From: Burkholderiaceae bacterium
GTDB taxonomy: Bacteria; Pseudomonadota; Gammaproteobacteria; Burkholderiales; Burkholderiaceae_D
Reading direction: 5' to 3'
NCBI GenBank assembly: GCA_023653025.1
Contig: JAMNXS010000007.1
Span: 1 to 63,861, forward strand
Length of the DNA: 63,861 nucleotides
The notes below the pieces were generated by a model. It did not search any database, had not been told where the DNA came from, and worked only from the letters and a program-made list of their open reading frames with translations. A program made the translations under genes and the position numbers. Numbering within the stretch: position 1 is the stretch's first letter; each line of letters starts with the position of its first letter. Shown one piece after another: positions 5,953-63,861 of the stretch.

Positions 5953-7110
5953 TTACTTGCGCGCGGCCAGGACTTCGGCGGGTTGAACGATGTTGTCTTC
6001 AGGCTTGTTGCCCCAGATGTTGCGGGTATACGTGATGACGGCGGCGATTTCGGTGTCGTTGAGCGTCGCCTTCCATGCTGGCATGCCGTTCTTGCCGTTG
6101 AGCAGGATGCCGATGTGCGGCTCTTGCGGGCCGTTGACCATCTGCGATCCTGCCAGCGCCGGGAAAGCGCCCTGCACGCCCTGGCCATTGGCCTGGTGGC
6201 AGGCGACGCAGTTGGCGGCGTAGACTTTCTCGCCGCGCGCCGACAGCTCTGCCACGGTCAGGGTCTTGTTCGGGTCGTCGGCCTTGGCGGCCATGGCCTT
6301 CTTCTGCTCGCCGACCCACTTCGTGTAGTCCTCTTCGCTGACGACGTTAACGACGATTGGCATGAACGCATGCTCCTTGCCGCACAACTCATAGCAGTTG
6401 CCGCGGTAGACGCCAACCTTCTCTGCCTTGAACCATGTGTCGCGCACAAAGCCGGGGATGGCATCCTGCTTGACGCCGAAGGCCGGCACGCCCCAGGCGT
6501 GGATGACGTCATTGGCGGTGGTGACGATGCGAATCTTCTTGTTGACCGGCACGACCAGCGCGTTGTCGACTTCGAGCAGGTAATTGTCGCCCTTGGCGAC
6601 TGCCTGGTGGATCTGGTCGCGCGGAGTCGACAGCGCCGACAGGAAGGAAATGCCCTCGCCATCGCCCTTCAGGTAGTCATAGCCCCACTTCCACTGCATG
6701 CCGGTGGCCTTGATGGTGATGTCGGCGTTCGACGTGTCCTTCATCGCGACCACGGTCTTGGTGGCCGGCAGCGCCATCAAAACGACGATCAGGAACGGCA
6801 CGACGGTCCATGCGATCTCGACGGCCGTGCTCTCGTGGAAGCTGGCCGCCTTGTGGCCCAGCGATTTGCGGTGCTTGAGGATCGAATAGAACATCACGCC
6901 GAACACCGCGAGGAAGATCGCGATGCAGATACCCATCATCCAGTTGTGCAGCTGGAAAATGTCTGCGGCGATGCCGGTGACCGGCGCCTGGAAGTTCAGC
7001 TGGCGTACGGCCGGTCCGCCGACGGAGTCGTTGACCGCCAGGGTCGAGCCGGATGCGATCAGGCCGGCTACGGCCATCAGCGATTGGATTAGGCGCTTCG
7101 CGTAGTTCAT
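5953..7110 (-). CDS. ctaC: Cytochrome c oxidase subunit II with C-terminal cytochrome c domain
   Basis: A 385-residue precursor: a signal-like N-terminus, two membrane helices (about 56-78 and 98-118), the CuA cupredoxin domain and an added c-type heme domain. CuA ligands are visible as His204, Cys239, Cys243, His247 and Met250 (in GNCYELCGKEHAFM), with the electron-entry aromatics in MQWKWGYDY. The heme site is Cys301-Val-Ala-Cys304-His305, followed by a distal Met region (NGMPAW). It is therefore a caa3-like subunit II. It is the first structural gene of the oxidase operon, 28 bp after the DUF2244 gene. Confidence 0.97.
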   Translation of the reverse strand: MNYAKRLIQSLMAVAGLIASGSTLAVNDSVGGPAVRQLNFQAPVTGIAADIFQLHNWMMGICIAIFLAVFGVMFYSILKHRKSLGHKAASFHESTAVEIAWTVVPFLIVVLMALPATKTVVAMKDTSNADITIKATGMQWKWGYDYLKGDGEGISFLSALSTPRDQIHQAVAKGDNYLLEVDNALVVPVNKKIRIVTTANDVIHAWGVPAFGVKQDAIPGFVRDTWFKAEKVGVYRGNCYELCGKEHAFMPIVVNVVSEEDYTKWVGEQKKAMAAKADDPNKTLTVAELSARGEKVYAANCVACHQANGQGVQGAFPALAGSQMVNGPQEPHIGILLNGKNGMPAWKATLNDTEIAAVITYTRNIWGNKPEDNIVQPAEVLAARK

Positions 7111-36614: not shown

Positions 36615-38045
<1,431 letters not shown>

Positions 38046-38084
38046 CACGCCCTCCTTTCATTGTTGGAAACGAAAAAAGTAACG

Positions 38085-38152
38085 TGAGCGTCGTTGCGAA
38101 TACTGTGCCAAGCCTGGCGGGAAAGCGGGATCCCGTCGCAACGCTCCTTGGC
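38085..38152 (-). promoter_or_regulatory. SAH riboswitch upstream of ahcY
   Basis: On the minus strand, 40-107 bp upstream of the ahcY ATG, the RNA reads GCCAAGGAGCGTTGCGACGG, then a GC-rich hairpin, CCAGGCTTGG, and later GCAACGACGCTCA. This gives helix P1 (CCAAG/CTTGG), the conserved GGAGCGTTGC strand, and a pseudoknot partner GCAACG plus CGCTC. These elements and their order match the S-adenosylhomocysteine riboswitch consensus known upstream of ahcY in Betaproteobacteria, which turns expression on when SAH rises. Confidence 0.9.
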
Positions 38153-38163
38153 AGACCGGTATT

Positions 38164-38724
38164 CTAATCGAAATGATCCGGCAAGGTGCGGGTCGGCCTA
38201 CGGAGCAATGCCCACACCATCCCGCTGGCCGCGCCGTAGACATGCGCGGCGGCCACGACCGGCATCCCGCCCGGGCCGTCATTGAAGAAAGCCAGCTTGA
38301 TTGCCAGCGCCGCCAGCGCGCCGGCAAACAGCGGCCGCCGCCAGCGCCACCAGCCGGCCAGTGCCGCGCCGGCCCACAAGCCGTGCAGCGCGCCGGACAG
38401 GCCGGCGTACCAGCGCAGCCCGGGTTCGAACAGCCAGAGCAGCAAGCCGGTGCCAAGCGCACTGGCCAGCAGCAGCGACCACAGCGCCGCCAGCCGCCAG
38501 CGCTCGAGCAGCCACTCCGCCACCAGCACCAGTCCGAGCAGGTTGAACATCAGGTGGCGGGTATCAATATGCGCGAAGTGCGCGCTCAGCAGCCGGCCCC
38601 ACTGGCCGTCGGCGATCGCCGCGCGTTCCCAGCGCAGCGCCTCGAGGGCGCCGGGCGCCAGGCTGGCCGCCAGCGACAGCAGGGCCAGCGCGAGCACGAA
38701 CGGCCAGCGCGCCCTGCTGTTCAT
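38164..38724 (-). CDS. rrtA: Rhombosortase (rhomboid-family intramembrane protease)
   Basis: A 186-residue six-helix rhomboid relative that processes proteins bearing a GlyGly-CTERM tail. The catalytic Ser110 is in WYAGLSGALHGLWAGA and His161 in VVAAAHVYGAASG; HLMFNLLGLVLVAEWLLER (57-75) is the rhomboid HxxxN helix. Small size and the LSGALHG motif fit rhombosortase. Its ATG overlaps the stop of the S8 protease, which carries such a tail, so enzyme and substrate are co-translated. It lies directly upstream of the ahcY riboswitch, on the same strand. Confidence 0.88.
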   Translation of the reverse strand: MNSRARWPFVLALALLSLAASLAPGALEALRWERAAIADGQWGRLLSAHFAHIDTRHLMFNLLGLVLVAEWLLERWRLAALWSLLLASALGTGLLLWLFEPGLRWYAGLSGALHGLWAGAALAGWWRWRRPLFAGALAALAIKLAFFNDGPGGMPVVAAAHVYGAASGMVWALLRRPTRTLPDHFD

Positions 38725-40901
38725 GGCCGGCGCAGCCGCCGGCCGATGGCCAGCGCGCCGGCCAGCCACAGCAGCAGGTCGCCGCCCACGGCGCCGCCGC
38801 CCCCACCGCCGGCCGGCGCGGCGGCCGATGCGCCGGCCGGCGCATCGGTGACGGTAATGTCGATCCGGCCGGGCAGGCTGCTGCCGTGGGTGTCGCTGGC
38901 CTGCCAGACGATGGCGGTGTCGCCGACGGGCGCTGCGCCTGCCCAGCTCAGCAGGCCGGACGACGACAAGCTGGCGCCGGGCGGCAGCGAAGCGGCGTGG
39001 TAGACGATGGCGTCGCCGTCGGCATCGGTAGCGCTCAGTTGCAGCCGCAGCGTGCCGCCGAACGGCACCTGCTGCCCGGGGACGGACGCCGGCACCGGCA
39101 CATTGTTCACGCGCACGGTGGCGCTGGCCGTGCCGACGGCGCCGCTGCTGTCGGTGACCTGCAGCGTGAACGCATAGGTGCCGGTGGCCGGCGCCGTGAA
39201 TCCGGCATTGGCGGTCGTCGCATTCGACAGCGTCACTGGCGACGGGTTGGAGGCGGCCGGCTGCCACTGGTAGCCGGCGATGCTGCGCCCGGCCGGCGGC
39301 TGCGCGCTGCCGGACAGGAAGACGCTGGCGCCCGGCGCCACGACCTGACTGGGCGGAACCGCTTGCACGACCGGCGCGATGGCCGTCAGCGCGGCCTGAG
39401 CGTCGAGCAGGCCGGCGCCGCACAGGCCGCTGTTCTCGGGCAGCAGGCAGGCACTGTTGGCAGGGAACGCGCGGGCCGAGCTGCGCAGCAGGGAGACAAT
39501 CTCGGCGCGCGTGAGCTGCGGGTTCATCGACAGCATCAGCGCAATGGTGCCGCTGACATGCGGAGCGGCCATGCTGGTGCCGAGCTTGAGCGCTGCACTG
39601 TCGGCCAGCGGCACGCTGGTGCCGGTGTTGCCGAGCGAGTAGACGGCCGGACCGTCGGCGGTATAGCCGGCGATGCAGGCCGAAGCAATGGTGCCGCAGC
39701 CGCCGCCCGGCGCGCTGATCGCGGTCTGCGCGCCGATGTTCGCGTAGTCGGCATTGTCGCCATCGATCGCATGCGCGGTGACGGCGACCACCCCGCTGCA
39801 GTTGGCCGGCTGGTTGACCGCGCTGGCGCCGCCGTTACCGGTGGCGACGACGACGATCGCGCCGCGGGCATTGACCTCGCTGACCGCATTCTGGAAAGCG
39901 GCCGAGCAGCTGCCCGCGCTGCCCAGCGACAGGTTGATCACGCGCGCCGGATTGGCATTGCGCGGCACGCCGGCGACGTCGATGCCGGCCGCCCAGCGCA
40001 GGGCGTCGACAATATCGGAGGTATAGCCGCCGCAGCGCCCCAGCACCCGCACCGGCAGCAGGCGCACGCTGGGCGCGACGCCGGTGCCGTACAGGCCGTT
40101 GTCCATCAGGGCACCGATGGTGCCGATCACGTGCGTGCCGTGCCAGCTCGAGTTCTTCGCAGCCGATCCGCTGCCGCATTCGCCGGCAACCGTGTAATCG
40201 CCCGGATCGGACGGGTCCGCGTCGCGCCCGCCGCCATCGTTGGCGACCGCGGCGGTGCTGATGAAGTCATAGCCCGGCAGCAGGGGGGCAAGGTCGCGGT
40301 GCGGACGCACGCCGGTGTCCAGCACGGCGACGTTGACATTGCCGCTGCCCAGGGTCATGGCCCACGCGGGAGGCAGGTCGGCGCCGCCGGCATTTGCGCC
40401 GCCCGGCGACAGGTAATGCCACTGCCCCGGCCAGGTCGCAAAACCGGGGTCGTTCGGCGCGATGACTTGCGGCTGCATCAGCAGGTCGGGCTCGGCGGCC
40501 TCGACCTCGCCGCTGGCGCGCAGCTGCGCGGCCAGCGCGCGCGCCTCGCCGACCGTCATCGGCCGCTCCAGTCGTAGCAGATGCGAACGCGCGGAGAGCT
40601 TGCGCTCGACCGACAGCGGAACGGTGGCCAGGGTCGACAGACGGCTGCTGCTGCGCTGCTCGAGCTGCGCTGCCAGCTTGCCGCCCCGGGTCGGATGCGG
40701 CGTGACGATCAGCCGCTCGACCATCGGCTCGGAGGGGGGGGCGGTCTCGGCGACGGCGGCTGCCGGCGGTGCCCGCAAGCCGGCTTTCTTGCCGAGCACG
40801 GCCGGGTCGGCACTCGCCGCGCCGCTGAGCGCCACGGCCAGCAACGCTGCCACGGTGCGCGCACGGGCGCGCGATGCACGTGGGGCAAAAGGGGAACCCA
40901 T
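38721..40901 (-). CDS. Secreted S8 serine protease with GlyGly-CTERM sorting tail
   Basis: A 726-residue subtilisin-like protease. It has an N-terminal signal region (about 15-31), an inhibitor-like propeptide (about 60-145) and a catalytic domain with Asp195 (VAVLDTGVRPH), His254 (SSWHGTHVIG), Asn356 (VATGNGG) and Ser443 (LGTSMAAPHVSG). Two immunoglobulin-like regions follow (about 515-690). The C-terminus is a glycine run, a hydrophobic helix (LLLWLAGALAIG) and a basic end (RRLRRP), i.e. a GlyGly-CTERM signal cut by rhombosortase. Such proteins leave the cell through type II secretion in Vibrio. Confidence 0.93.
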   Translation of the reverse strand: MGSPFAPRASRARARTVAALLAVALSGAASADPAVLGKKAGLRAPPAAAVAETAPPSEPMVERLIVTPHPTRGGKLAAQLEQRSSSRLSTLATVPLSVERKLSARSHLLRLERPMTVGEARALAAQLRASGEVEAAEPDLLMQPQVIAPNDPGFATWPGQWHYLSPGGANAGGADLPPAWAMTLGSGNVNVAVLDTGVRPHRDLAPLLPGYDFISTAAVANDGGGRDADPSDPGDYTVAGECGSGSAAKNSSWHGTHVIGTIGALMDNGLYGTGVAPSVRLLPVRVLGRCGGYTSDIVDALRWAAGIDVAGVPRNANPARVINLSLGSAGSCSAAFQNAVSEVNARGAIVVVATGNGGASAVNQPANCSGVVAVTAHAIDGDNADYANIGAQTAISAPGGGCGTIASACIAGYTADGPAVYSLGNTGTSVPLADSAALKLGTSMAAPHVSGTIALMLSMNPQLTRAEIVSLLRSSARAFPANSACLLPENSGLCGAGLLDAQAALTAIAPVVQAVPPSQVVAPGASVFLSGSAQPPAGRSIAGYQWQPAASNPSPVTLSNATTANAGFTAPATGTYAFTLQVTDSSGAVGTASATVRVNNVPVPASVPGQQVPFGGTLRLQLSATDADGDAIVYHAASLPPGASLSSSGLLSWAGAAPVGDTAIVWQASDTHGSSLPGRIDITVTDAPAGASAAAPAGGGGGGAVGGDLLLWLAGALAIGRRLRRP

Positions 40902-41060
40902 CGAGAACTCCAGAAGCTGCAGTGTTGAAGCCAGTCACTGTAGCAGCGGAGAAATCAATTTCTGATGGGTATTAAGAGGGAAAGTCCGCCTATTTTTCGA
41001 AGATGCGAAGGCTGCAATGACGGATCGTCCATGTTCGTTGCCAGTCTGACTGCAAGTACA

Positions 41061-41120
41061 AGGCGGTACGCGGCGGCACGCGGCGGCACGCGGCGGCACG
41101 CGGCGGTACGCGGCGGCACG
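41061..41120. repeat. 10-bp tandem repeat
   Basis: Six near-perfect units of CGGCGGYACG (period exactly 10 bp), the Y being T in the first and fifth and C in the others. It lies between metK and the S8 protease gene, 72 bp downstream of the metK stop. There is no spacer sequence, so it is not a CRISPR array. It codes for nothing recognisable. Confidence 0.85.
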
Positions 41121-41191
41121 CCGGCAATCTGTCGCGCCGAAGAACGACGGGGCGGCGTCGCCGGCCCGTCGTTCAGGCGCTGGTGCGCGGC

Positions 41192-42355
<1,164 letters not shown>

Positions 42356-51271: not shown

Positions 51272-51742
51272 GTGACGAAAGCTAACGACGTGGCAACCAA
51301 CTCCAAAACCTCTAAATCTTCCGGCGTCGATGGCGGCCTCCTGACCGAGCAGCAGATCCTTGCGATGGACGAGAAGGACTACATGAACTCCGCGCAACTG
51401 GCGTTCTTCAGGGCGCGGCTGCAGCAGCTCGAGAAGGACCTGCTGCGCAACGCGGGCGAGACCACCGAGCACTTGCGCGAGACCGTGCTGGTGCCGGATC
51501 CGGCGGATCGCGCAACCATCGAAGAAGAGCACGCGCTGGAGTTGCGCACACGCGACCGCGAGCGCAAGCTGCTCAAGAAGGTCCAGCAGTCGCTGCAGTC
51601 CATCGACTCCGGCGACTACGGCTGGTGCGAAGAAACCGGCGAACCGATCGGCATTCCGCGCCTGCTGGCGCGACCGACCGCCACGCTCTCGCTGGAGGCG
51701 CAGCAGCGCCGCGAACTGAAGCAGAAGCTCTACGGCGACTGA
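51272..51742 (+). CDS. dksA: RNA polymerase-binding transcription factor DksA (Cys-poor type)
   Basis: A 156-residue RNA-polymerase secondary-channel protein that works with ppGpp in the stringent response. The coiled-coil (about 45-110) includes the acidic tip region PDPADRATIEEEHALEL. The C-terminal globule reads YGWCEETGEPIGIPRLLARPTATLSLEAQQRRELKQKL. Only one Cys remains where classical DksA has four zinc ligands, so zinc binding is unlikely; this form is usual in several beta- and alphaproteobacteria. It begins with GTG at 51272. A terminator follows. Confidence 0.93.
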   Translation: MTKANDVATNSKTSKSSGVDGGLLTEQQILAMDEKDYMNSAQLAFFRARLQQLEKDLLRNAGETTEHLRETVLVPDPADRATIEEEHALELRTRDRERKLLKKVQQSLQSIDSGDYGWCEETGEPIGIPRLLARPTATLSLEAQQRRELKQKLYGD

Positions 51743-51763
51743 CCCGCCCCCGGCGCCGCGCGA

Positions 51764-54475: not shown

Positions 54476-55648
54476 GTGAAATTCCTCGACCTCTTCGGCA
54501 AGACCCGGACGCATCCGCTGCGGGACGTGCGCGAGCCATCGCGGCCCGGGCTGTCGGCCGACGAGCGCCGCGCCACGACGCGCAAGATCGACGCCATCGA
54601 ATCCGACATCGCGTCGGAAATCGCCTCGGAAATCGCGTCAGAGATCGCGCCGGGCATTGAACCAGCGCTCGCGGCCGGGCCCGTCGCATTACTGCGCCAG
54701 CGGATCGAGGAGGCCACCCTGCTGCACGCCAGCGGCCAGTCGGCAGCAGCGGCCGCGCTGCTGGCCGAGGCGACGGCCGCGCCCGTGCCCGACGACGCGC
54801 CGGCCGAGCAGCGCGCCTGGCTGATGCGGCTCGAACTGGCCGGTTTCGCCGGCGCGCAGGCCCGCTTCGAGGATATTGCGCTCGGCTATGCCCGGCGCTT
54901 CGAAACCTCGCCGCCGCAATGGCGCAGCCCGCAAGCACCCGCGGGGGACGACGAATCGTCGATACCCGCCGTCGGCTTCCGCGGTCGGCTGTGTGCCAGC
55001 GCGCAGCCGGCGCTGGCCCGGCTCGCGCAGGTGGCGAGCCGGCATGATCGTTTCAGTCTGGATCTGGCCGGCGTGACCGAGGTCGACGTCGGCGGCAGCC
55101 GCCTGCTGCTCGAGTTGCTGCATCGCTGGCGCGGCGAGGGCCGCCATGTCGAATGTATCGCGATCGACAGCCTGCTCGGCCTGTTGCGCCAGCAGCTGAG
55201 CGAGGGACGGCGCGACCGCGACGATGCTGCCTGGCGGCTGCTGATCGAATTGTTGGCCGCCGGTGGCAGGACCGAGGAGCATGAAGACGCCTGCCTTGCC
55301 TACAGCCTGACCTATGAAGTCTCGCCACCGGCCGGCTCGACGCCGACAGCCTGCGCGCCGCCGGGCGTCGGCCGGCCCGGATACCTGCTGTTGCCGGCCG
55401 AGATACGTTGCCCGGTAGACGACACGCTCGAACGCATCCGCGGCGCGGGCCGCGCAGCAGACGCCATCGTGCTGGACTGCCGGCGCCTGCAGCGCATCGA
55501 GTTCGGTGCCGCTGCTCCGATGCTTGCCGGCATCCGTCGCGTGGCCGGAGGCAAACCGGTAGAATGGTGCGACGTGCCTTGCCTGGTTTCGACGCTGCTA
55601 CAGCTCGTTGGCGACGACGCGATGAGCATTGCCCACCGCAAACCCTGA
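54476..55648 (+). CDS. Protein with two STAS-like domains upstream of hslVU
   Basis: A 390-residue soluble protein starting with GTG. After a polar region with a fourfold S(D/E)IA repeat (residues 43-58), a helical stretch (about 66-145) leads to a STAS-like domain (FSLDLAGVTEVDVGGSRLLLELLHRW, about 180-240) and a second degenerate one (IVLDCRRLQRIEFGAAAPMLAGIRRV, about 330-385). STAS domains bind nucleotides or partner proteins in regulatory pathways; no kinase site is evident. The gene lies 78 bp upstream of hslV, a position seen in other Burkholderiales. The function is unknown. Confidence 0.75.
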   Translation: MKFLDLFGKTRTHPLRDVREPSRPGLSADERRATTRKIDAIESDIASEIASEIASEIAPGIEPALAAGPVALLRQRIEEATLLHASGQSAAAAALLAEATAAPVPDDAPAEQRAWLMRLELAGFAGAQARFEDIALGYARRFETSPPQWRSPQAPAGDDESSIPAVGFRGRLCASAQPALARLAQVASRHDRFSLDLAGVTEVDVGGSRLLLELLHRWRGEGRHVECIAIDSLLGLLRQQLSEGRRDRDDAAWRLLIELLAAGGRTEEHEDACLAYSLTYEVSPPAGSTPTACAPPGVGRPGYLLLPAEIRCPVDDTLERIRGAGRAADAIVLDCRRLQRIEFGAAAPMLAGIRRVAGGKPVEWCDVPCLVSTLLQLVGDDAMSIAHRKP

Positions 55649-57828: not shown

Positions 57829-58443
57829 TCAGCGCGGCTGCGGCTGCCCGGCGGGCGCGCCGCCTGGCCCGCCGGCGCCCGCGCCTCCGGGGCCGCTGGC
57901 ACCCATCGCCGTCGGTTGCGGCAGCGACGGCGGCGGTGCCGGCTGCGGTGGCTGCGGTGGCTGCGGCTGGGGCGGCTGCGACTGGGGCGCCACCGGCTGC
58001 GGCACCGGCGTGGCGGCCTGCATGCCCGAGCTGCCTGCCTCCTGCGCCGCGAAGGCCGGCAAGCTCAGTTCGCGCTCGACACCGCGGTCCGACAGCACCA
58101 CCGTGCGCGCATGAATCTCCTTGACCGTGAGCCCCGGCAGCACCTCCGCATCGACCGCCAGCGCGCGGGTCGGCTTGCCCTCGGCGGCGAGGATGGCGAC
58201 GCTGCCGGCCGAACGGCCCGAGCGAATGATGCCGCGCAGCTGCACGTTGGCCATGCCGCCGCCCTGCGGACGGCCGCCGAACAGGCTGGATGCGGCCGCC
58301 ACCGGCGGCGCGCTGCGCTCGGCCCGGGGCGGCGCGGCCACTGCGCGCGGCTCCGGAGCCAGCCACTGCAGCAGCCAGTACGCGACCGACGCGCACAGCA
58401 GGAGAAACAACAGGAAGCTGGCGATGACGGGTGCGCGCTGCAT
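57829..58443 (-). CDS. gspC: Type II secretion protein GspC-like
   Basis: A 204-residue inner-membrane protein with an N-terminal helix (about 8-28) and a periplasmic homology region (VQLRGIIRSGRSAGSVAILAAEGKPTRALAVDAEVLPGLTVKEIHARTVVLSDRG, about 67-121) that contacts the secretin. It lacks a PDZ domain; instead the C-terminus is a Pro/Gln/Gly-rich tail (about 140-204), an unusual ending. It lies 4 bp downstream of gspF and is the last gene of this transcript. Confidence 0.8.
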   Translation of the reverse strand: MQRAPVIASFLLFLLLCASVAYWLLQWLAPEPRAVAAPPRAERSAPPVAAASSLFGGRPQGGGMANVQLRGIIRSGRSAGSVAILAAEGKPTRALAVDAEVLPGLTVKEIHARTVVLSDRGVERELSLPAFAAQEAGSSGMQAATPVPQPVAPQSQPPQPQPPQPPQPAPPPSLPQPTAMGASGPGGAGAGGPGGAPAGQPQPR

Positions 58444-58447
58444 CGGC

Positions 58448-59665
58448 TTACCGCACCAGCTGGTTGATTTCGATGATGGGCATCAGCACCGCCAGCACGA
58501 TCAGCAGCACTACCACCCCCATGGCAAGAATCAGCACCGGCTCCAGCAGGCCGGCAATGGTCAGCGCGCGCCGCTCGAGATCCTGCTCCTGCAGCTGGGC
58601 GGCGCGGTTCAGCATGGCCGGCAGTTCGCCGGTGACCTCGCCGGCGCGGATCATGTGAATCAGCATCGGCGGGAAATGCCGGTGCGCCGACAGCGCACGC
58701 GCCAGTCCCACGCCCTCGCGCACCGAGGCCGTGGCTTCCTCGACCTGCTGCCGCATCGCGACGTTCGACAGGGTGTCGCGGCTGGTCTGAAGCGCGCGCA
58801 GGATGGGCACGCCGGAACTGATCGTGATGGCCAGCGTGCTGGCGAAGCGCGAGGTATTCAGGCTGCGCTCGAACTTGCCGACCAGCGGCGCCGTCAGCAG
58901 CCACCGGTGCCAGCGCAGCTTCGCGTCCGGATCGCGCAGGCTGCGCCGCCACAGCACAAGGCCGGCCATGACGAACAGCGCCACCAGCCAGCCCCAGGCG
59001 CGCACGAAGTCCGAGATGGCCAGCATGGCCACCGTCAGGAACGGCAGTTGCTGCTTGGTGTTGGCAAAGACGGTGACGATCTGTGGCACCACGTAGGCGA
59101 GCAGGAAGATCACGATCGCGAAAGCGACCACGGTCACGATGGCCGGATAGGTGAACGCCAGCCGCACCTTCTGCACCAGCGCGTTGCGCCGCTCGACGAA
59201 ATCGGCTAACCGCGACAGCACGCCGGCGAGCTGGCCGATCTGCTCGCCGGACGCCACCAGCGCCCGGTAGATGTCGGCAAAATCGCGCGGGTGCTGCGCC
59301 AGCGCGTCCGACAGCGAAGAGCCGCCCATTACTTCGGCGCGGATGGCCGCAATCAGGTCACGCAAATAGGGACGCTCGGCCTGCTCCATCAGCGCATCGA
59401 AAGCCTGCTCCAGCGGCAAATTGGCTTCCAGCAGCGAGGCCAGCTGGCGGGTGAACAGCGCCAGTTCCACTGTCGACAGGCGCTCGCCGAAGCTGAACGA
59501 GCGGCGCGCGCCGCCGCCGGCGTCGCCGACAATGACATCGAGCGCCAGCGGCACCAGCCCGCGCGCGCGCAAGTCGGCGCGCGCCGCGCGCGGACTGTCG
59601 GCCTGCAACACACCCTTGCTGCTCGCACCGGCGGCGTCGACGGCTTCGTAGCGGAAGGCGGGCAT
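58448..59665 (-). CDS. gspF: Type II secretion inner-membrane platform protein GspF
   Basis: A 405-residue polytopic protein with two duplicated GspF domains (about 68-190 and 270-392), each preceding a membrane segment. Landmarks are MPAFRYEAVDAAGASSKGVLQADSPRAAR, LFTRQLASLLEANLPLEQA, NTSRFASTLAITISSGVPILRALQ and MIRAGEVTGELPAMLNRAAQLQE. It anchors the ATPase GspE and the pseudopilus. It lies 3 bp downstream of gspE. Confidence 0.96.
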   Translation of the reverse strand: MPAFRYEAVDAAGASSKGVLQADSPRAARADLRARGLVPLALDVIVGDAGGGARRSFSFGERLSTVELALFTRQLASLLEANLPLEQAFDALMEQAERPYLRDLIAAIRAEVMGGSSLSDALAQHPRDFADIYRALVASGEQIGQLAGVLSRLADFVERRNALVQKVRLAFTYPAIVTVVAFAIVIFLLAYVVPQIVTVFANTKQQLPFLTVAMLAISDFVRAWGWLVALFVMAGLVLWRRSLRDPDAKLRWHRWLLTAPLVGKFERSLNTSRFASTLAITISSGVPILRALQTSRDTLSNVAMRQQVEEATASVREGVGLARALSAHRHFPPMLIHMIRAGEVTGELPAMLNRAAQLQEQDLERRALTIAGLLEPVLILAMGVVVLLIVLAVLMPIIEINQLVR

Positions 59666-59668
59666 CGC

Positions 59669-61105
59669 TTACTCCTTCGTCACCCGCAACAGCTCCGCCT
59701 CGGTCGTCGTGCCGTCGCGCAGCCAGCGCTCGCCGTCCTCGCGCATGCTGAGCATGCCGTCGCGCTGGGCAGAGGCGCGGATCTCGGCTTCCGACGCCTG
59801 GTTGTGGATCTGCGCGCGGATGGGATCTGTCGTCAGTAGCAGTTCGTAGATGCCGACCCGGCCGTGGTAGCCGGTGTGCCCGCACTTGTCGCAGCCGACC
59901 TCGTGCCAGCGCTCGCCGTCGAAATGGCGGCAATGCACGCACAGCTTGCGCACCAGGCGCTGCGCGACGACACCGATCAGCGAGGACGACAGCAAGAAGG
60001 GCTCGATACCCATGTCGAGCAGCCGGGTAACGGCCGCCGGCGCATCGTTGGTGTGCAGGGTGGCCAATACGAGGTGACCGGTTAGCGAGGCCTGGACCGC
60101 GATCTGTGCGGTCTCGAGGTCGCGGATCTCGCCGATCATGATCACGTCCGGGTCTTGCCGCAGGATCGCGCGCAAGGCCTTGGCGAACGTCATGTCGATG
60201 CGCGCATTGACCTGGGTCTGGCCGACGCCGGGCAATTCGTATTCGATCGGATCCTCGACCGTGAGGACATTGGTCGATGGCGAGTTCAGCCGCGACAGCG
60301 CCGCATAGAGCGTCGTGGTCTTGCCGGAGCCGGTCGGTCCCGTGACCAGCACGATGCCGTGCGGCTGCGCGATCAGGTGGTCGAACTGCGCCTGCGTGCC
60401 CTCGCCCATGCCCAGATGCTGCAGGTCCATGCGCCCGCCTTCCTTGTCGAGCAGTCGCAGCACCGCACGCTCGCCGTGGCCAGTGGGCAGCGTGGACACG
60501 CGCACGTCGACCGGCTTGCCGCCGACGCGCAGCGTGATCCGCCCGTCCTGCGGCAGGCGCTTCTCGGCGATGTCGAGCTGAGACATGATCTTGATGCGCG
60601 AGATCAGTGCCGCATGGATCGCCTTCTTCGGACGCACCACGTCGCGCAGCCGGCCGTCGATGCGAAAGCGCACCACCGACACCTGCTCGAAGGGCTCGAT
60701 GTGGATGTCGGAGGCGCCCTCGCGCAGCGCCTGCGTGAGCAGCGCGTTGATCATGCGTATCACCGGTGCGTCGTCGGACGACTCCAGCAGGTCCTCGACC
60801 GCCGGCATGTCTTGCATCAGGCGCGCGAGGTCGAGATCGGACTCGACCTCGTCGACCACCTGCGCGGCGTCGCCGCCGGAGCCGGCGTAGGCTTTCGCGA
60901 TCGCGCTCTCGAGCTGCTCGCGCGGCAGCCGGTTCAGGCGCACGCGTCCGAAGCGGCGACTGACTTCGGCCACCGCCGACGGCACGGTCGCCTCCGATAC
61001 CCAGATATCGACGGCGCCGTCCGGCTCGCCGGCCTGCGCGAGCACGCCGAAGTCGCGCGCGAAAGTGAACGGCAGCAGCCGCGGGTCATGCATGGCAATG
61101 GTCAT
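59669..61105 (-). CDS. gspE: Type II secretion ATPase GspE
   Basis: A 478-residue assembly ATPase. It has an N-terminal domain (about 1-90), Walker A TGPTGSGKTTTLYAALSRL (about 257-275), the Asp box and Walker B (RAILRQDPDVIMIGEIRDLETA), the His box LVLATLHTNDA, and the tetracysteine zinc region CVHC...CDKCGHTGYHGRVGIYELL that distinguishes GspE from twitching ATPases. It powers the pseudopilus for export of folded proteins. It is 33 bp downstream of gspD. Confidence 0.97.
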   Translation of the reverse strand: MTIAMHDPRLLPFTFARDFGVLAQAGEPDGAVDIWVSEATVPSAVAEVSRRFGRVRLNRLPREQLESAIAKAYAGSGGDAAQVVDEVESDLDLARLMQDMPAVEDLLESSDDAPVIRMINALLTQALREGASDIHIEPFEQVSVVRFRIDGRLRDVVRPKKAIHAALISRIKIMSQLDIAEKRLPQDGRITLRVGGKPVDVRVSTLPTGHGERAVLRLLDKEGGRMDLQHLGMGEGTQAQFDHLIAQPHGIVLVTGPTGSGKTTTLYAALSRLNSPSTNVLTVEDPIEYELPGVGQTQVNARIDMTFAKALRAILRQDPDVIMIGEIRDLETAQIAVQASLTGHLVLATLHTNDAPAAVTRLLDMGIEPFLLSSSLIGVVAQRLVRKLCVHCRHFDGERWHEVGCDKCGHTGYHGRVGIYELLLTTDPIRAQIHNQASEAEIRASAQRDGMLSMREDGERWLRDGTTTEAELLRVTKE

Positions 61106-61138
61106 GGCTGGTCTCTTCTGAACAATGCTTGCCGTCCC

Positions 61139-63316
61139 TCATCGCTGGTTGATTACGGGCGGCTCCACCGGAAAGACCTCGGGCGGCGGCGAAGGTTGCA
61201 CCGCAGACCGCCCCGACGCGCCGGAAGACTGGCGCACGCCGGACGGCTCGCGGTTGAGCATCGAGCCGCCGACCGGGCGACCGCCCTCGAGCGGCGGCAG
61301 GCGCGGCGAATCGGTGTCGGGCAGCAGCGCATTGGGTGTCGGCTGTACGGCCATCTGCGCGCCGCGGATGTAGTCATAGCGATCGCCGGCCACCGACACG
61401 CTTTGCTCGCTGCTGCGCACGACGGTCGGTCGCAGGAACACTATCAGGTTGGTCTTGGTGCGCCGCTTCGACTGGTAGCGAAACAGATAGCCCAGCAACG
61501 GAATGTTACCCAGGCCCGGCACGCGCTCGACCGAGTCGGTCAGCGTGTCCTCGATCAGCCCGCCGAGCACGATGATCTGTCCGTCGTCGACCAGCACGTT
61601 GGTGTCGATCGAGCGCTTGGAGGTGATCAGTCCCGAGGCGGTCGACTGCTGGATGTTGGATGTTTCCTGATAGATCGCCATCTTGACCGTGCCGCCCTCG
61701 GAAATCGTCGGGCGCACGCGCAGCGACAGGCCGATGTCGCGCCGCTCGATGGTCTGGAACGGGTTGACTCCGGCCGCGCCGCCGGCCGAGGCCGGCGTGG
61801 TGAACTGGCCGGTGATGAAAGGAACGTTCTGGCCGACGATGATCCGCGCTTCCTCGTTGTCGAGCGTGATCAAGTTGGGCATCGACAGGATATTGGCCTT
61901 GGTGTTGGTTTCGAGCGCGCGGGCCAGCGCGCCGAGTCCGAGCTGTCCGTTGTCCTGCTTGAAGATGCCGGCGGTGAGGCCATTACCCGGCGGCAGAGGC
62001 GTGTTGTTCGGCCCGAGAATGGACGCGGCCTGCCGCACAAGATTGTTACCCTCGGTGGCAAAGCCGGTCAGGATGCCGACCCGGTAGCTGCTGCCGCCGC
62101 TGCCAGACAAGGCCGCCCACTGCACGCCCAGTTCTGCCGCGCGGTCGGCGCTGATCTCGACGATCAGCGACTCGACATACACTTGCGCGCGCCGCGCATC
62201 GAGCTGGTCGATGATGGCGCGCAGGTTGCGGTAGACCCGTTCGTTGGCGGTAATGATCAGCGTATTGGTGGCCGGGTCCGCCTGGATGAAGCCGGCCGTA
62301 CCGCCGGTCGGCAGCGGCCCCTGCTGCGGCGCGGGCGACGACGGCGGGACCTGCAGGCCGGCTCCCTGCTGCTGCGTGGTCGGCTGCGTCGGCTGGGTGG
62401 GCGTTGTCGTCGTCGGGCCGGTGGGGCTGGCCGCGCCGGTCTCGCCGGCCACCACCGCGCGCAATACCTGCGCCAGCCGCGTCGCTTCGGCGTTGCGCAG
62501 GTACACCACATGCACGTTCCCCGGGAGCGTGGTCGGCTGGTCGAGCTTGGCGATCAGGTTGCGCGCGAGGTTCGCGCGGGCGGCCGTCGGCGCGCGGATG
62601 ATCAGCGAGTTGGTGCGCGAGTCGGCCAGCAGCAGCACGCGGCCGGGGTCGGCCTGTCCGGGCGCAGCGCCGGTATCGAGCAGGCGGTTGATGGTGATGG
62701 CCATGTCGACCGCGATGCCATGCTCGATCTTGATCACGTCGAGGTCGCCGATCGACGGTACGTCGAGCGCGGCGATGATGCGCGACAGGCGTTTCAGATT
62801 GTCCGCGTAGTCGGTGATGATCAGCGTGTTGTTGGTCGGGTCGGCCGCGATCGTGTTGTTCGGCGAGATCAGCGGCCGCAGCACGGCGACGAGCCCGTTG
62901 GCGTTCTCGTGATCGAGGCGGAAGATCTGGGTGGCGATCTGGTCGCCGCGCAGCTTGCCGATCTGCACCGGCGACGCCTGCAGCTTGGCGTCGGCCTCCG
63001 GCACCACCTTGACGAAATTCTGCGTGCGCACCACCGCATAGCCCTGCAGGCGCAGTACCGAGGTCAGCATCTCGAAAGCCTGACGCTTGCTGACCGGCTT
63101 CTCGGAGACGAGGTTGATGGTCCCTTTCACGCGCGGGTCGATGACGAAGGTGTTGCCGGTAAAGTGCCCGACCGCGCGCACCACCGACTCGATGTCGGCG
63201 CCGACGAAGTTCAGCGTCGCCTGGTTGTCGGCGGGTTCCTGCGCGAAGGCCGCAGGCAGGACGGCCGACAGCCAGAGCACCGCGAGCAGCATGGCGAGTT
63301 GCGAGATTCTTTTCAT
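61139..63316 (-). CDS. gspD: Type II secretion secretin GspD
   Basis: A 725-residue outer-membrane secretin. The signal peptide ends near AFAQE (residue 26). N-domains follow (NFVGADIESVVRAVGHFTGNTFVIDP, then FEMLTSVLRLQGYAVV and repeated NTLIITDYADNLKRL-type units). The secretin core contains VYVESLIVEISADRAAELGVQW, MPNLITLDNEEARIIVGQNVPF and GGLIEDTLTDSVERVPGLGNIPLLGYLFR. An unusual Thr/Pro/Gln-rich insert (about 275-325) sits between N-domains. The ATG at 63316 overlaps the gspN stop. Confidence 0.96.
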   Translation of the reverse strand: MKRISQLAMLLAVLWLSAVLPAAFAQEPADNQATLNFVGADIESVVRAVGHFTGNTFVIDPRVKGTINLVSEKPVSKRQAFEMLTSVLRLQGYAVVRTQNFVKVVPEADAKLQASPVQIGKLRGDQIATQIFRLDHENANGLVAVLRPLISPNNTIAADPTNNTLIITDYADNLKRLSRIIAALDVPSIGDLDVIKIEHGIAVDMAITINRLLDTGAAPGQADPGRVLLLADSRTNSLIIRAPTAARANLARNLIAKLDQPTTLPGNVHVVYLRNAEATRLAQVLRAVVAGETGAASPTGPTTTTPTQPTQPTTQQQGAGLQVPPSSPAPQQGPLPTGGTAGFIQADPATNTLIITANERVYRNLRAIIDQLDARRAQVYVESLIVEISADRAAELGVQWAALSGSGGSSYRVGILTGFATEGNNLVRQAASILGPNNTPLPPGNGLTAGIFKQDNGQLGLGALARALETNTKANILSMPNLITLDNEEARIIVGQNVPFITGQFTTPASAGGAAGVNPFQTIERRDIGLSLRVRPTISEGGTVKMAIYQETSNIQQSTASGLITSKRSIDTNVLVDDGQIIVLGGLIEDTLTDSVERVPGLGNIPLLGYLFRYQSKRRTKTNLIVFLRPTVVRSSEQSVSVAGDRYDYIRGAQMAVQPTPNALLPDTDSPRLPPLEGGRPVGGSMLNREPSGVRQSSGASGRSAVQPSPPPEVFPVEPPVINQR

Positions 63317-63861
63317 TTGAATTCGAGCGCGATCACGTTTCTGTTTCCCACCTGGCGGCGCTGACCCAGCAGGTTCAGCAGCACGGCCAGCCTCTGTTCT
63401 TCGCCTTCCTGCGCCCAGGCCTGCCCCGAGAATTGCAGGCGCCCGTCGACGATGCTGCCGGCGCCTTCGAGCAGCAGCGGACCCGACAAGCTTTTCAGAT
63501 CGAGCCGGGCCTTGTCTCCCTGCCAATCAAATTGCATGCGATAAGCACCCAGCGGCTTGACCGGCGATAAGGCCGACGCAATCTCCGTCATGTCCAGCTG
63601 CATGCGGCCATCGATATCCACCCCGCCGGCCGCGCGTTCGACCGTCAGCGCAGGCCACGACAGCCGCATCAGTCCCGACGGCTGCACGGTGTTGAGCGGC
63701 GCGCCCAGCGCGGCCAGGCGCTCGGCCGGCAGGCTGATAGTCGCCGGCCCGAGCTGCCAGCGTCGCCAGTTGCCGTCGATGGCCAGCGGCGCGTCGAGCG
63801 CACGCGGATTGCGCACGCCGGCATCGACGATGCCCACCAGCGCCAGCGGCGACAGCGTCCA
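63313..63861 (-). CDS. gspN: Type II secretion protein GspN, N-terminus outside window
   Basis: The 182 C-terminal residues of a GspN-like protein; the frame continues past base 63861. It shows beta-rich repeats: WRRWQLGPATISLPAERLAALG, MRLSWPALTVERAAGGVDIDGRMQLDMTEIASALSPVKPLGAYRM and LLLEGAGSIVDGRLQFSGQAWAQEGEEQRLAVLLNLLGQ. GspN is an accessory inner-membrane/periplasmic component whose role is unclear. Its stop overlaps the gspD start (ATGA). Confidence 0.85.
   Translation of the reverse strand, partial: WTLSPLALVGIVDAGVRNPRALDAPLAIDGNWRRWQLGPATISLPAERLAALGAPLNTVQPSGLMRLSWPALTVERAAGGVDIDGRMQLDMTEIASALSPVKPLGAYRMQFDWQGDKARLDLKSLSGPLLLEGAGSIVDGRLQFSGQAWAQEGEEQRLAVLLNLLGQRRQVGNRNVIALEFK

Follow-up and report, generated by a model that had tools for sequence, protein, structure and literature searches.

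Does a secreted protease encoded next to a small rhomboid form, with that rhomboid, a dedicated sorting system? The question is raised by two adjacent genes in a 63,861-nucleotide stretch of DNA (hereinafter, the window) from a freshwater bacterium with a genome of 2.89 Mb in 126 contigs that is 95.8% complete. The initial annotation, made from the sequence, proposed that an S8 protease with a GlyGly-CTERM tail is the single substrate of a rhombosortase encoded immediately downstream.

Organization of the locus

Re-derivation of the reading frames placed both genes on the minus strand at 38164-40901, as annotated, with the stop codon of the protease gene (726 amino acids) and the start codon of the rhomboid gene sharing 4 bp (Table 1). 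A scan of positions 38000-41250 for promoters and terminators gave no useful result. A 10-bp repeat (GGCGGCACGC) is present in six copies at 41062-41121, between metK and the protease gene; elsewhere in the window (54596-54653), a 12-bp tandem repeat within an open reading frame encodes an I-A-S-E peptide repeat.

The catalytic triad of the protease was assigned by motif to Asp195, His254, and Ser443, and the closest solved proteins by sequence (5yl7, 7w2a, and AprV2/BprV) cover approximately residues 147-508. The N-terminus contains a hydrophobic stretch (residues 16-32) and is a predicted signal peptide that would be cleaved after AASA, before D. The catalytic domain is followed by a PKD domain, an Ig-like domain, an Ala/Gly linker, and the C-terminal tail. 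One relative (G015) lacks the PKD and Ig-like domains and retains the catalytic domain and the tail. A Nitrosomonadales protease (L065:2143-4953) has both of these domains doubled ahead of the tail.

Table 1. Features of the protease-rhombosortase locus and its surroundings (positions in the window)
Feature	Position	Strand	Basis or remark
S8 (subtilisin-like) secreted protease gene	38721..40901	-	Pfam Peptidase_S8 9.2e-43; motif positions
Predicted signal peptide, residues 1-31	40809..40901	-	judged by eye
Catalytic domain, residues 188-476	39474..40340	-	domain search
K319L-like PKD domain, residues 519-598	39108..39347	-	domain search
He_PIG Ig-like domain, residues 605-685	38847..39089	-	domain search
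GlyGly-CTERM-type tail, residues 698-726	38724..38810	-	tail alignment and profile; missed by TIGR03501
ATGA overlap, protease stop/rhombosortase start	38721..38724	-	
Rhombosortase gene (rrtA/rssP type), 186 aa	38164..38724	-	TIGR03902, alignments, predicted model
ahcY, downstream neighbor flanking the cassette	36615..38048	-	
metK, upstream neighbor flanking the cassette	41192..42355	-	
Type II secretion genes gspC, gspF, gspE, gspD	57829..63526	-	more gsp genes on contig C65

The small rhomboid is a rhombosortase

The rhomboid scored 99.5 bits against TIGR03902, above the curated cutoff of 84, which bears out its annotation as a rhombosortase. The LSGALHG and AHVYGAASG motifs begin at residues 109 and 160, respectively, in agreement with the proposed numbering of Ser110 and His161, and both residues are conserved without exception in an alignment of 20 sequences. 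A histidine four residues past the catalytic serine, at the position of Tyr205 in GlpG, marks the rhombosortase subfamily (PMC3237569). The window enzyme has His114 at this position (Ser110-Gly-Ala-Leu-His114), and this residue is invariant in all 18 rows of one alignment (A4); in the wider rhombosortase set, tyrosine occupies the position in G003, G004, and G086. Rhombosortase is described as having no GlpG-type cytoplasmic N-terminal domain (PMC11389362), and none is found in the window protein, in which the first transmembrane-length helix spans residues 6-22.

A structure model built from 18 sequences (pLDDT 91.3) contains six transmembrane-length helices, and the closest solved fold is that of Escherichia coli GlpG (TM-score 0.70); the predicted model supports a rhomboid fold and says nothing on specificity. 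No other rhombosortase over the cutoff was detected in the host genome. A second rhomboid candidate, on contig C32, scored 12.1 bits against the rhombosortase model and lies in a frame without a Pfam match, and GlpG was not seen in the host genome with the rhombosortase model as the only probe.

The protease ends in a GlyGly-CTERM-type tail

The C-terminus of the protease, GGGGGGAVGGDLLLWLAGALAIGRRLRRP, consists of a Gly run, a hydrophobic helix, and the Arg-rich tip RRLRRP, as the initial annotation had read it, and among the window open reading frames selected for a simple motif rule, this tail is the only one of its type. A tail profile was built from the last 40 residues of 19 proteases encoded upstream of rhombosortases in relatives, the host included; all 19 aligned tails proceed from GGGG through a hydrophobic stretch to basic residues. 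The window tail scored 33.7 bits against a profile rebuilt without the host's row, compared with 10.2 bits on the tail profile for the highest-scoring among 2,000 shuffled tails, and is therefore not a chance match. Of four tails set aside as a test, two were recovered by the full profile and two divergent ones were missed, which limits the completeness of the tail search.

The curated GlyGly-CTERM model, TIGR03501, matches neither the window protease nor, at an E value of 10, its position in the genome. The same model matches only 2 of the 19 tails of this protein family and, according to its curators, overlooks true members (PMC3237569). For this reason, the tail is called here a GlyGly-CTERM-type tail: as judged from the published three-part architecture and from homology, it belongs to this type without being a member of TIGR03501. 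The features present are a Cys-free Gly-rich motif, a hydrophobic helix, and a basic end at the extreme C-terminus, an N-terminal signal peptide (by eye), and a rhombosortase encoded in the same genome.

A MYXO-CTERM identity was also considered; the corresponding model (TIGR03901) weakly matches 7 of the 19 family tails. The MYXO-CTERM/myxosortase system shares the three-part tail, a trimming protease, and type II transport to the surface, but its motif has an invariant Cys, and the myxosortase active site is described as unlike that of rhombosortase (PMC11980579). Cys is absent from the window tail and from the Gly run in all 19 tails (L013 has a Cys further on), and the MYXO-CTERM identity was rejected for want of the signature-motif Cys.

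Proposed processing and destination of the protease

The two genes very probably constitute a protein-sorting cassette in which the protease precursor is sorted by the co-encoded rhombosortase. The basis for this reading is the family identity of the enzyme, the architecture of the tail, the one-to-one pairing and the joint presence or absence of the genes in the genus, and the recurrence of the pair in both orientations. The signal peptide would export the precursor, and the C-terminal helix would hold it in the inner membrane, the Arg-rich tip protruding into the cytoplasm. We infer that the rhombosortase cleaves the tail; the cut would fall at or near the Gly run. By analogy with VesB and RssP of Vibrio cholerae, the new C-terminus would gain a glycerophosphoethanolamine-containing group, keeping the protease on a membrane, and type II secretion, which is present in the host genome, would then carry it to the cell surface.

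VesB resembles the window protease as a secreted serine protease that has an Ig-like region, a linker, and a Gly-rich tail; a rhombosortase processes it, and the cell possesses type II secretion (PMC6219818, PMC11389362, PMC13393428). Its surface display requires the rhombosortase, the tail, and type II secretion, and it bears the glycerophosphoethanolamine-containing group (PMC6219818). The tail and RssP are enough for membrane association; transport to the outer membrane requires another signal (PMC13393428). Thus, the original proposal that such tails are cut by rhombosortase and that the proteins leave through type II secretion has a published precedent, but its second half is too simple, because the processed V. 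cholerae protein carries a C-terminal modification, stays on the membrane or surface, and needs that further signal for outer-membrane transport (PMC6219818, PMC13393428).

Alternatively, the rhombosortase might cut the tail and the protease might simply be released by hydrolysis, as a free exoenzyme with no lipid-like anchor. Such release would fit the Gly/Ala-rich linker ahead of the window tail and two observations in V. cholerae: GlpG cleavage of VesB, which has been told apart from RssP cleavage (PMC11389362), yields a soluble, secreted protein, and VesC is freed by self-cleavage in its linker (PMC11389362; PMC13393428). RssP cleavage of VesB, however, leads to surface retention (PMC6219818), and the window enzyme is of the RssP type; a freely released protease is accordingly a possible, if rather doubtful, outcome.

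Type II secretion is separable from the pair

The four gsp genes of the window lie 16.9 kb from the pair (about 17 kb had been estimated), and gspG, gspH, gspI, gspK, gspL, and gspM were found at the end of contig C65. Of the 21 genus genomes, 19 have gspD over the cutoff, 17 have gspF, and 18 have gspG; all three are over their cutoffs in G015, whose protease has no PKD or Ig-like domain. The seven genomes that lack the pair all have a gspD over the cutoff, so type II secretion presumably has other clients in the genus.

A clear exception is G003. In G013, the operon runs from gpsA-gspG to gspC-hslUV. In G003, residues 26-82 of gspG are fused straight to residues 310-407 of gspF (G013 frame numbering), inside a 116.7-kb contig of a genome scored 100% complete; the remnant operon (locus L105, G003:C47:10000-25000, bases ~6600-7080) comprises the gspG fragment and the final quarter of gspF, next to gspC and hslVU. 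A single deletion, from within gspG to within gspF, took most of the type II operon, this being one event in a metagenome assembly in which a consensus error is possible. The G003 protease frame is intact, including the tail, and the rhombosortase (L010) has an in-frame stop at codon 5, with a possible TTG restart a few codons later. The dN/dS values between G003 and G004, 0.08 (protease) and 0.25 (rhombosortase), fall inside the range of other pairs in a comparison that took in 9 of the 13 S8 genes. A second case of type II loss may be G004, in which neither gspD nor gspG was detected and the contig breaks off within gspF.

Type II secretion is thus separable from the pair, because G003 keeps the protease without most of the operon; taken together with the codon-5 stop in the rhombosortase, this means that not all steps of the chain are required in the genus. 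The genus thus holds, in G003, a natural experiment in pathway dismantling. On a bold but improbable reading, the cassette would be a membrane-anchoring module independent of type II secretion, and loss of type II secretion would make the rhombosortase dispensable, the protease then staying uncleaved in the inner membrane.

One enzyme and one detectable substrate

The genome search for further GlyGly-CTERM proteins that the initial annotation had called for was run with the tail profile, and no credible tail besides that of the protease was found in the host genome. Two candidate second tails were rejected: a profile match at 51698-51751 (minus strand) falls within a frame antisense to another gene, and a TIGR03501 match on contig C18 is under the cutoff; neither match is located at a C-terminus. 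Across the genus, the antisense match apart, every one of the 13 genomes whose rhombosortase exceeds the cutoff yielded a single tail, and the remaining 8 yielded none; these genus tails had served to train the profile, and the informative part of this result is the lack of extra ones.

This distribution argues against the existence of several substrates of the rhombosortase in the host genome. Multiple substrates would accord with the survey of Haft and Varghese, in which several targets per enzyme are the rule (PMC3237569), with the two divergent held-out tails missed by the profile, and with a host genome that is 95.8% complete. In the same survey, however, multi-target genomes, two named exceptions apart, have no target adjoining the rhombosortase gene (PMC3237569), and a set of several substrates is unlikely here. 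The annotated single substrate therefore stands as one credible tail per genome; further divergent substrates are possible because the profile missed two such tails.

The genes are present or absent together and adjoin in both orientations

Within the genus, the protease and the rhombosortase co-occur: both genes were found in 13 of the 21 genomes and neither in 7. The protease, found in 14 genomes, stands alone in G020, where the match ends at base 20 of the contig, that is, cut off at the contig edge. Under independence, this 13/1/7 split has a probability of 7e-5, a value that is merely illustrative because the genomes share descent. The pair sits between metK and ahcY, and it is cleanly absent, with metK and ahcY adjacent, from G001, G008, G009, and G019 (~120, 120, 250, and 320 bp between matches, respectively). 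In G005, ahcY lies at a contig edge, and it was not found in G010, G012, and G020.

A family search of 96 relatives yielded 23 rhombosortases over the cutoff. A tail-bearing gene is located directly upstream on the same strand for 19 of these, and two others (G027 and G086) adjoin a tail-bearing S8 protease gene in convergent orientation. No tail gene was present near the remaining two (G053 and G055) within the stretches fetched; the G055 protein (L131, 1081-1728), a rhomboid over the rhombosortase cutoff, has a changed motif after the Ser, with no tail gene within the 9 kb fetched. In two genomes with weaker rhombosortase matches (G048 and G058), the neighbor is likewise a tail-bearing S8 protease in convergent orientation. 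Another 24 loci came from named records, 14 of them repeating, as judged by length, contigs of the 96-relative search. A cultured relative, Keguizhuia sedimenti R-40 (L066), also carries the pair. The 10 additional loci include co-directional genes with tails in a Nitrosomonadales bacterium (L065) and in Gallionella (L067), a convergent S8 gene with a tail in Polaromonas (L075), and, in an uncultured proteobacterium, a HAF-repeat/DUF3466-like protein with a GlyGly-type tail encoded upstream of the rhombosortase (L064:343-1695); no tail-bearing partner was seen at the other six.

In other Burkholderiales, rhombosortases adjoin tail-bearing S8 proteases that are oriented the opposite way. The partnership therefore outlasts a change of gene order, because co-directional and convergent pairs both occur, and one locus pairs the enzyme with an unrelated protein bearing the same type of tail. 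That the tail is an ordinary, uncleaved membrane anchor, left uncalled by TIGR03501, and that the rhomboid acts on other proteins and is adjacent only by accident of a shared operon, is very improbable in view of the joint presence or absence, the lack of any other credible tail in the host genome, and the convergent neighbors in G027, G086, G048, G058, and Polaromonas, because recurrence in convergent orientation is not explained by a single shared operon. The TIGR03902 score, the joint presence or absence, and the single credible tail instead support the dedicated protease-rhombosortase pair of the initial annotation.

Relation to described systems and implications

Dedicated adjacent rhombosortase/GlyGly-CTERM pairs, in which a rhombosortase-family enzyme likewise adjoins its only detectable tail-bearing target, were described by Haft and Varghese in 2011 (PMC3237569). 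The window pair is therefore a further example of a published two-part system, correctly spotted and named, and not a new kind. The Haft and Varghese table already has Burkholderiales (Ralstonia and Cupriavidus), and S8/S53 proteases are among the targets (PMC3237569). In contrast, the window lineage (Oxalobacteraceae MAGs) was not found in the accessible text of that paper, the window tail scores below their GlyGly-CTERM model, and the cassette, placed between metK and ahcY, is missing as a unit in several sister genomes. A literature search on rhombosortase in Oxalobacteraceae returned nothing, and no biochemical evidence for the host species was found. Compared with VesB, which is one of six GlyGly-CTERM proteins (PMC11389362), the window protease is the one target detected, and it is a subtilase encoded beside its enzyme.

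The biology of rhombosortase sorting is already outlined in print. Relative to the accessible text of PMC3237569, PMC6219818, PMC11389362, and PMC13393428, the additions made here are the lineage, the clean presence or absence between metK and ahcY, the recurrence in two orientations, and the loss of most of the type II operon in G003. The proposal that such a locus would make a compact model system is not new, dedicated pairs having been described before (PMC3237569). Published rhombosortase experiments, as far as the accessible text of these papers goes, used a pathogen that has six targets and in which VesB is also cleaved by a second rhomboid. If the relationship is indeed one enzyme to one substrate in an environmental freshwater lineage, the pair would offer a cleaner test bed for the rhombosortase cut site and the attached group, and sister genomes without the pair, without the Ig-like domains (G015), or without most of the type II operon (G003) would allow the dependence of the pathway to be compared step by step.
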